A stretch of 64,000 bases of DNA, taken from contig LDXJ01000049.1 of assembly GCA_001029295.1 (NCBI GenBank), forward strand, positions 1-64,000, written 5' to 3'. The stretch is from Peptococcaceae bacterium CEB3. GTDB lineage: Bacteria; Bacillota; Desulfitobacteriia; Desulfitobacteriales; Desulfitobacteriaceae. The translations under genes were made by a program, and so were the position numbers. The notes beneath the pieces are model-generated. The model was not told the origin of the DNA, searched no databases, and saw only the letters and a program-made list of their open reading frames with translations. Within the stretch, counting starts at the first letter, position 1. Each line of letters opens with the position of its first letter. Of this stretch, positions 25,436 to 61,559 are shown piece by piece.

Positions 25436-25801
25436 TCATTTTTTGGGCGAAATCGGAATCTCCCCGCGGCGGACCAAACCCAACTGCGTCCGGGCCAACT
25501 GCTCGACATAGGCCGGATCATTGAGCCAACGGATCTCCTGCTGCAACCGGCTCTGCTTGTGCACCAGCGCTGCCTTCTCAGCTTCAAGATACGAGAGACG
25601 CCCCTCGACCTGCCTCTGCAGCTGCCACAAATTCCAGAGGGAAGTGCCGACCACCCCCAGAGCCAGAAGCAGCGCCGCCAGGGAAACCGGCTTGATGCTA
25701 AACCTTTTTCTCCGGCCGGGCTTGCTGTTGTGTGCGTTCTTAAGGTGTGCGTTCTTCTTTTGTGCCGACCCGTGCGCCCCTTTACTCGGGATCCTGTTCA
25801 C
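25436..25801 (-). CDS. divIC: Septum formation initiator DivIC/FtsB family
   Basis: Bitopic divisome protein that forms a complex with FtsL and DivIB at the septum. About 121 residues: a basic, repeat-containing cytoplasmic N-terminus (KKNAHLKNAH from a 15-bp DNA duplication near 25731-25755), one transmembrane helix (VSLAALLLALGVVGTSLW), a periplasmic-side coiled coil (QLQRQVEGRLSYLEAEKAALVHKQSRL) and the family's end motif DPAYVEQLARTQLGLVRRGEI. The GTG at 25801 is chosen because GGAGGGG is 8 nt upstream; the ATG at 25810 is too close to it. Overlaps the upstream HTH gene, so the two are coupled. Confidence 0.93.
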   Translation of the reverse strand: MNRIPSKGAHGSAQKKNAHLKNAHNSKPGRRKRFSIKPVSLAALLLALGVVGTSLWNLWQLQRQVEGRLSYLEAEKAALVHKQSRLQQEIRWLNDPAYVEQLARTQLGLVRRGEIPISPKK

Positions 25802-26027
25802 CCCATTCATCCCCTCCTAAGCCCAATTCTTGGCCGGGAATAATGCAGACGATCTCATATCCTTTATTTTTCGCCCTGGCCAGTAGTGTCGCTATAGAAC
25901 TGGGACTCATGCCAAGTCTCTTGCCCATCTGTTCCTGGGTTTGTCCACTCTCTTTTAAAATTACCACCTGACGCTCGCGGAAACTGAGCTTTTCCAACCC
26001 TCTGATCTCCAGATGCACCGTGCTCAC
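25782..26027 (-). CDS. Small helix-turn-helix protein upstream of divIC
   Basis: Up to 81 residues; a sigma-70 region 4 / LuxR-like HTH covers most of it (LSFRERQVVILKESGQTQEQMGKRLGMSPSSIATLLARAKN written here in two halves: LSFRERQVVILKESGQ and TQEQMGKRLGMSPSSIATLL). A short hydrophobic-acidic tail follows. No receiver, membrane or dimerisation domain. It is not part of the B. subtilis yabQ-divIC order. It overlaps divIC by about 20 nt, and its promoter region is packed with DnaA-box-like sites. It may be a regulator of its own operon. The start is uncertain: GTG at 26027 or GTG at 26018 (better spacing from AAGG). Confidence 0.75.
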   Translation of the reverse strand: MSTVHLEIRGLEKLSFRERQVVILKESGQTQEQMGKRLGMSPSSIATLLARAKNKGYEIVCIIPGQELGLGGDEWGEQDPE

Positions 26028-26036
26028 CCTTACCGT

Positions 26037-26102
26037 TTATCCACATTATCCACAGGTCCCTGTGGACAAATCGTGGACAAACTGTCTACGTTCTGTGGAC
26101 AA
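26037..26102. promoter_or_regulatory. DnaA-box cluster (five 9-mers) upstream of the HTH-divIC operon
   Basis: Perfect TTATCCACA boxes abut at 26037-26045 and 26046-26054. In the opposite orientation are TGTGGACAA at 26061-26069 and 26094-26102 (one mismatch from consensus) and CGTGGACAA at 26072-26080 (two mismatches). Boxes 2 and 3 face each other across a short gap. An AT-rich stretch follows (26107-26120). The cluster occupies about +6 to +71 relative to the predicted transcription start of the HTH gene. Confidence 0.75.
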
Positions 26103-26114
26103 AGTCGTAAATTT

Positions 26115-26143
26115 ATTATAACGGCAAAAGGGGCCGGAATCAA
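26115..26143 (-). promoter_or_regulatory. Promoter of the HTH-divIC operon (sigma-A)
   Basis: Minus strand TTGATT (complement of 26138-26143), 17-bp spacer, TATAAT (complement of 26115-26120). Predicted start near 26108, immediately ahead of the DnaA-box cluster, with the first gene starting about 80-90 nt later. Confidence 0.7.
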
Positions 26144-61247: not shown

Positions 61248-61559
61248 TTAGTCTCTCCGCAAAAAAGCTCTGCAAAACAGGCAATCACCGTCCTCCAAGG
61301 GCTGTCCGAAATGCAGGTGGCAGACGTGAAATCCTTCTTTGTACAATTTCATCAGGTTTTCGTGTCCGACACCCTGCAGCCGCTCGGCATTGGCTATCAC
61401 CCGGTTGGTTTCCTGTTCGGGAACGGCGCATAATTCCCGCTTCAGACGGATGTTCTCCTCCTCCAGCGCCTCAACATAGCGCTTCAGGCGTTCGATTTCA
61501 TCTTGTAAAGAGCCAAGCCGCTCCTGGACCTCGCTGATGGCCTGAGTCAATTGGCTCAT
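61248..61559 (-). CDS. yabA: DNA replication initiation control protein YabA
   Basis: Binds DnaA and DnaN to limit re-initiation. 103 residues: an N-terminal leucine-zipper coiled coil (about 5-50, ISEVQERLGSLQDEIERLKRYVEALEEENIRLK in parts) and a C-terminal zinc domain with CHLHFGQP and CLFC cysteines. Small size and context (yaaT-yabA-rsmI) agree. Overlaps the yaaT 3' end by 4 nt. Confidence 0.93.
   Translation of the reverse strand: MSQLTQAISEVQERLGSLQDEIERLKRYVEALEEENIRLKRELCAVPEQETNRVIANAERLQGVGHENLMKLYKEGFHVCHLHFGQPLEDGDCLFCRAFLRRD

Follow-up and report, generated by a model that had tools for sequence, protein, structure and literature searches.

A phased 11-bp array with DnaA boxes is inherited with a small helix-turn-helix gene and may form its operator

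The leader of a small helix-turn-helix (HTH) gene next to divIC carries an array of 11-bp units together with DnaA boxes, and across the phylum both are inherited together with the HTH gene and are dispensable for divIC. We give an even chance to the reading, drawn from sequence comparison, that this leader serves the HTH gene as an operator to which the gene's own product binds cooperatively, with the DnaA boxes embedded in it. The element is conserved over dozens of families, essentially only upstream of this one small uncharacterised HTH gene, and suggests a circuit for cell-cycle control in sporulating anaerobes, outside the models B. subtilis and E. coli. A vague remark on DnaA near divIC in an earlier note on this DNA thereby becomes a testable claim on one specific protein, with the served gene identified.

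In the window (the whole stretch of DNA that was analysed, 64,000 nt), the gene order on the minus strand is yabP, yabQ, promoter, leader, small HTH gene, divIC and an S1-domain gene. The features of this locus, each with the support for it, are as follows.

26115..26143, minus strand: sigma-A-type promoter TTGATT-17-TATAAT of the HTH-divIC operon (sequence and relatives)
26093..26103, minus strand: array unit 1, TTTGTCCACAG, with the DnaA-box-like TTGTCCACA at 26094-26102 (11-bp register from relatives)
26082..26092, minus strand: array unit 2, AACGTAGACAG, degenerate, TGT to CGT (intact in a relative)
26071..26081, minus strand: array unit 3, TTTGTCCACGA (register in relatives)
26060..26070, minus strand: array unit 4, TTTGTCCACAG, with TTGTCCACA at 26061-26069 (register in relatives)
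26046..26054, plus strand: perfect DnaA box TTATCCACA, in the orientation opposite to the array units (equivalent box in relatives obeys TTATNCACA)
26037..26045, plus strand: perfect DnaA box TTATCCACA, abutting the box at 26046..26054 (also in the sister species)
25782..26018, minus strand: small HTH gene, sigma-70 region-4-like, about 78-81 aa (Pfam, conserved N-terminus)
25436..25810, minus strand: divIC, which overlaps the HTH gene at the latter's 3' end (Pfam PF04977, DivIC, E 9e-11)

The leader, about 90 nt long, thus has the order TTTGTCCACAG-AACGTAGACAG-TTTGTCCACGA-TTTGTCCACAG-GGACC-TGTGGATAA-TGTGGATAA: four same-direction 11-bp units, one of them damaged, followed by two reverse DnaA boxes placed end to end. 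The count of five 9-mers within 66 bp in the earlier note is correct, four of them with at most one mismatch (the two TTATCCACA boxes and, with one mismatch each, the two minus-strand TTGTCCACA sites) and the fifth, TTGTCCACG at 26072-26080 on the minus strand, with two. In Acididesulfobacillus acetoxydans, the closest relative (G001/L169; HTH protein 96% identical), unit 2 is undamaged and reads GATGTAGGCAG (L003), and the abutting TTATCCACA pair is likewise found in the sister species (G001:590869-590886). One match to TTGATT-17-TATAAT is expected by chance within the 64,000-nt window, and the support for the promoter therefore comes from its conservation, an equivalent promoter standing at the equivalent place in nearly all host-family relatives. 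From the distance to the -10 element, the transcription start is predicted near 26108. Translation of the HTH gene probably starts at the GTG at 26018 and not at the GTG at 26027 of the mechanical ORF call, because the N-terminus [M/V]-[HQK]-[LI]-EIRG is conserved and reads MHLEIRG from 26018. The GTG at 26018 is preceded by AAGGGTGAG.

The box cluster, several TTATNCACA-type sites close together, exceeds chance. The window has 45 sites with no more than one mismatch versus 23.8 expected, and the densest 66 bp holds four of them, a density seen in 0 of 400 dinucleotide shuffles of the window (maximum three, reached once). When the whole genome was scanned, a TTGTNCACA pair with a gap of up to 30 occurred only in this leader, and perfect TTATNCACA pairs with a gap of up to 25 occurred at five loci, oriC among them. 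Elsewhere in the same genome, four boxes in one direction (TTATGCACA, TTATCCACA, TTATCCACA and TTATCCACT; L201 1648-1687, G000:C62:325647-325686) are flanked by argH-like and nicotinate phosphoribosyltransferase-like genes and are kept in A. acetoxydans at 1,022,541. Three perfect TTATCCACA sites and one near box, 14-20 bp apart, lie at L202 1743-1805 (G000:C62:333742-333804) and also in A. acetoxydans near 1,029,227, and similar perfect-box pairs are found roughly 600-740 kb into several complete host-family genomes.

The HTH protein matches Pfam Sigma70_r4_2 (PF08281) with 34.3 bits at a cut-off of 25.7. It has neither region 2 nor full sigma length, sigma models stay far below their cut-offs, and a sigma factor identity was rejected, the region 4 HTH alone being present. 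The structure model (pLDDT 87) folds as strand-three helices-strand, with sigma region 4 and NarL-type domains as its best structural matches (Z 7.6-6.5). A Foldseek search with this model gave no match at E <= 0.001, so that the fold assignment depends on the Pfam match and on Z values of about 7. At a distance, the ORF at 61248-61559 (minus strand, 103 aa), with a coiled coil and a zinc-like CHLHF...CLFC end, reads like YabA, in agreement with the earlier note.

At E <= 0.001, 178 of 398 genomes of the phylum have the HTH gene, and loci were compared from the host family (41 leaders) and from about 50 further families, each represented at least once. A perfect box is found no more than 150 bp before the HTH start in 40 of 41 host-family genomes and in 38 of 57 others across the phylum; the boxes are thus conserved in relatives, which was the check named beforehand. 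Directly after the promoter run head-to-tail 11-bp units in which TGT is invariant, in chains of at least three in 39 of 41 host-family leaders and of three to eight in 92 of 113 HTH loci; the other 21 have fewer than three, the array being divergent or missing. When TGT-TGT distances were pooled from 75 leaders, sampled mostly at one per family, 199 pairs were spaced at 11 bp versus 5.9 in shuffles (maximum 14), followed by 145 at 22 bp, 87 at 33 bp and 37 at 44 bp versus about 5 in shuffles. Leader L116 comprises eight units, every step being 11 bp. In relatives the order is regular: TNTGTA (TGTAnnnnn) units come first, TTTGTMCACA follows, and a reverse DnaA box (TGTGGATAA; TNTGTGGATAA) comes last; in the host genus, unit 2 is degenerate and neither of the two perfect boxes keeps to the 11-bp register. 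Among the f2/f3 loci, 11 of 15 have a chain of at least three units and 1 of 15 a perfect box, the f3 genomes keeping the TGTA array without DnaA boxes. In four f3 genomes (L204-L207; G058, G056, G048 and G049) a box module adjoins a Nif3-like gene; it reads TTATCCACA-N2-TTATNCACA-N3-TGTGNATA in three of the four, with a TTGTCCACA variant in L204.

In place of the sigma-A-type promoter, many leaders outside the host family have a second type, AGGAWW-N14-GAA[T/A], which is present in 22 of the 75 leaders versus 1.2 in shuffles. It resembles the sigma-H consensus, and such sigma-H-like promoters would suggest sporulation-phase control of a division gene. AGGAATT-N-GTAGAAT of this kind lies upstream of HTH-divIC in many families (leaders L112-L168), and a similar sequence precedes divIC in two HTH-less genomes (L095, L097).

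Which of the two genes the element goes with was read from loci that lack one of them. In 13 HTH-less genomes of the same class that possess yabQ, divIC follows yabQ in all 13, and in no case does the yabQ-divIC gap contain a TGT pair at 11-bp spacing or a perfect DnaA box. Compared with 92 of 113 HTH loci with an array, this gives a Fisher p of 5e-9, although the count of 13 overstates independence, the genomes coming from only a few lineages. Conversely, in 108 of 113 loci the HTH gene has a DivIC-like neighbour; the five with none within the kilobases fetched, one of which has a bifunctional nuclease as the next gene, all retain the array, at 3-5 units, together with a perfect box. As the array is absent without the HTH gene and kept without a nearby divIC, the element goes with the HTH gene; it is co-inherited with a putative regulator gene and adjoins its promoter, as expected of an autoregulated operator. 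Since the two genes stand together in about 95% of loci, divIC may be co-regulated with the HTH gene.

Boxes and units follow different rules. In 30 distinct host-family leaders, the reverse box varies essentially at position 5 alone, plus one other change, with T, G, C and A on the transcript strand in 19, 6, 3 and 1 cases. The consensus boxes are hence conserved with a free position 5, as DnaA boxes should be, and vary as the TTATNCACA rule predicts. The TGTA units conserve little besides TNTGTA and are missing the CACA half of the DnaA box. The TTGT form, TTGTNCACA, with the G at position 3 that the TTGTMCACA units use, accounts for 44 forward leader units versus 15 of TTATNCACA, and for 2 of about 212 oriC sites of the host family. 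Position 5 of the forward unit is A or C in 41 of 43 leader modules versus 9 of 23 modules elsewhere (hand count). The leader thus has same-direction 9-mers with 2-bp gaps in the manner of an oriC-like low-affinity array, but its units do not resemble the DnaA sites of the genome's own oriC. The simplest reading of these patterns is that two signals are superposed, an HTH operator with built-in DnaA boxes, some units fitting both rules.

The two signals also differ in where else they occur. In 69 whole genomes, TWTGTM-N5-TWTGTM-N5-TWTGTM has 47 matches, 45 of them in the HTH leader, with 7 in the reversed control; the window's own leader fails this strict pattern because one unit is damaged. 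The two stray matches (G000:C56 and G019:C28), fewer than the reversed-control rate, were discarded; a TetR-like gene lies near one of them. The TGTNCACA-N3-TGTGNATAA module has 66 matches in 398 genomes, 43 in the HTH leader (hand count) and none in controls, and among the 19 non-leader matches fetched at least 10 adjoin dnaA. In the window's genome, array profile R1 matches only the leader (E 1.4e-6) and the oriC/dnaA upstream region (E 0.006); because R1 was built from leaders, the second match mainly shows that the sites look alike. The three-unit array is therefore essentially confined to the HTH leader, and the DnaA-box end recurs mainly at oriC.

In the mechanism that we propose, the HTH protein would bind the TGT units side by side, nearly on one helix face and over its own transcript start, and, bound cooperatively, would repress its own gene. 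DnaA would bind the consensus boxes embedded at the 3' end and, more weakly, the TTGTMCACA units, and could block or compete on the leader, so that the HTH level would be tied to DnaA availability. Usually divIC would be carried along, because it shares the operon with the HTH gene, and more speculatively the HTH protein might in turn act on replication or division. Binding of both proteins at the leader is a prediction from sequence patterns, and the putative autoregulation by the HTH protein is argued from co-inheritance and position. The leader hints at an unstudied link to the start of DNA replication. A bolder version, which we hold to be improbable, makes the HTH protein an unrecognised phylum-wide regulator of replication initiation that recognizes a DnaA-like site, competes at oriC and forms with DnaA a feedback loop that usually includes divIC. 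In this version the oriC-like array at the promoter would be the means by which the HTH protein sets its own level.

The strongest rival has DnaA acting alone: the consensus boxes would anchor it, ATP-DnaA would extend from there in the direction of the promoter over weak sites separated by 2 bp, and the HTH gene would merely be DnaA-repressed. Its strength derives from E. coli oriC, where arrays of 9-bp sites with 2-bp gaps are filled from strong anchors (PMC6070618); since the TGT spacing equals this 9+2 bp geometry, DnaA alone could explain the 11-bp phase. Convergent box modules are also present at oriC, and in most families the anchor boxes stand at one end of the array. We nevertheless judge this reading unlikely, if well worth keeping in play, because it leaves several observations unexplained: units without the CACA half, a TTGT form almost unused at oriC of the host family, f3 genomes that retain the array without anchor boxes, a three-unit array essentially confined to the HTH leader and, although DnaA is universal, arrays that are missing where the HTH gene is missing.

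Still less probable is a site near the origin for DnaA titration or timing, with incidental effects on transcription. The position fits, the locus lying about 65-110 kb from dnaA in complete host-family genomes and hence doubling early; the B. subtilis clusters jointly restrain initiation (PMC5295017, PMC11019786), and further perfect-box pairs exist in the window's genome. Titration, however, requires neither promoter proximity nor a TGT register of 11 bp nor attachment to a single gene, and all three are present here.

The earlier note proposed that DnaA may repress or roadblock the operon, so that initiation would be coupled to septation via DivIC. DnaA is described as binding division-gene promoters such as ftsL in B. 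subtilis (PMC11019786), and divIC is the usual neighbour of the HTH gene (108 of 113 loci). The link nevertheless fails where the genes are separated, boxes being absent in 13/13 loci with divIC and no HTH gene and kept in 5/5 with the HTH gene and no divIC, and we consider such coupling very unlikely. An effect of DnaA on septation through divIC would be at most indirect, and possible in that form because divIC is co-transcribed. The DnaA reading as first put forward is thus supported in part, by the conserved boxes, their place after the promoter and the variation at position 5; its link to divIC is not supported, and the 11-bp array had been missed.

That the convergent boxes pair into a leader RNA hairpin regulating the operon is scarcely credible: the fold of the window's leader is stable (-35.1 kcal/mol, z -3.35, equalled by none of 200 shuffles), but the arms form 7.79 of 9 pairs versus 7.93 after re-dealing arms among genomes, so that compensatory changes and co-variation are missing, pairing at position 5 occurs in only 8 of 24, an Rfam search gave no match, and no terminator-like site was seen at the hairpin. 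DnaA-trio repeats were rejected, the array being spaced at 11 bp and not built of tandem trinucleotides.

A literature search, with most subscription journals outside its scope, found no account of a phased operator of this kind, no paper joining DnaA, divIC and DnaA box, and none joining divIC, helix-turn-helix and Desulfitobacterium. The main text of a paper on in vitro genome-wide DnaA binding in B. subtilis makes no mention of yabQ or divIC.

Among known systems, the HTH protein is closest to the DNA-binding domains of sigma-70 region 4 and of the NarL type, by the Sigma70_r4_2 cut-off and by Z of 7.6-6.5; unlike sigma factors it is without region 2, and a short strand flanks the HTH on both sides. 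The pho box has an 11-bp repeat unit with TGTCA, and the putative operator in the leader is likewise made of head-to-tail direct repeats. OmpR/PhoB regulators bind head to tail on such repeats (PMC3348028), but with a winged helix, whereas the protein described here is a free-standing sigma-region-4/NarL-like HTH. B. subtilis has six DnaA-box clusters that jointly restrain initiation (PMC5295017). Like these clusters and the DnaA-regulated promoters of B. subtilis, the leader has TTATNCACA-type sites outside oriC and is origin-proximal; it differs from the clusters in its phased TGT array and dedicated HTH gene. The closest geometry is that of the low-affinity arrays R5M-tau2-I1-I2 and C3-C2-I3-C1 of E. 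coli oriC, in which 9-bp sites with 2-bp gaps adjoin strong boxes (PMC6070618). The leader shares the one-direction 9-bp sites, the 2-bp gaps and the consensus boxes alongside. In contrast to these arrays it is not an origin, and most of its units conserve TNTGTA and not the DnaA box; its array follows a promoter and is attached to a single gene.
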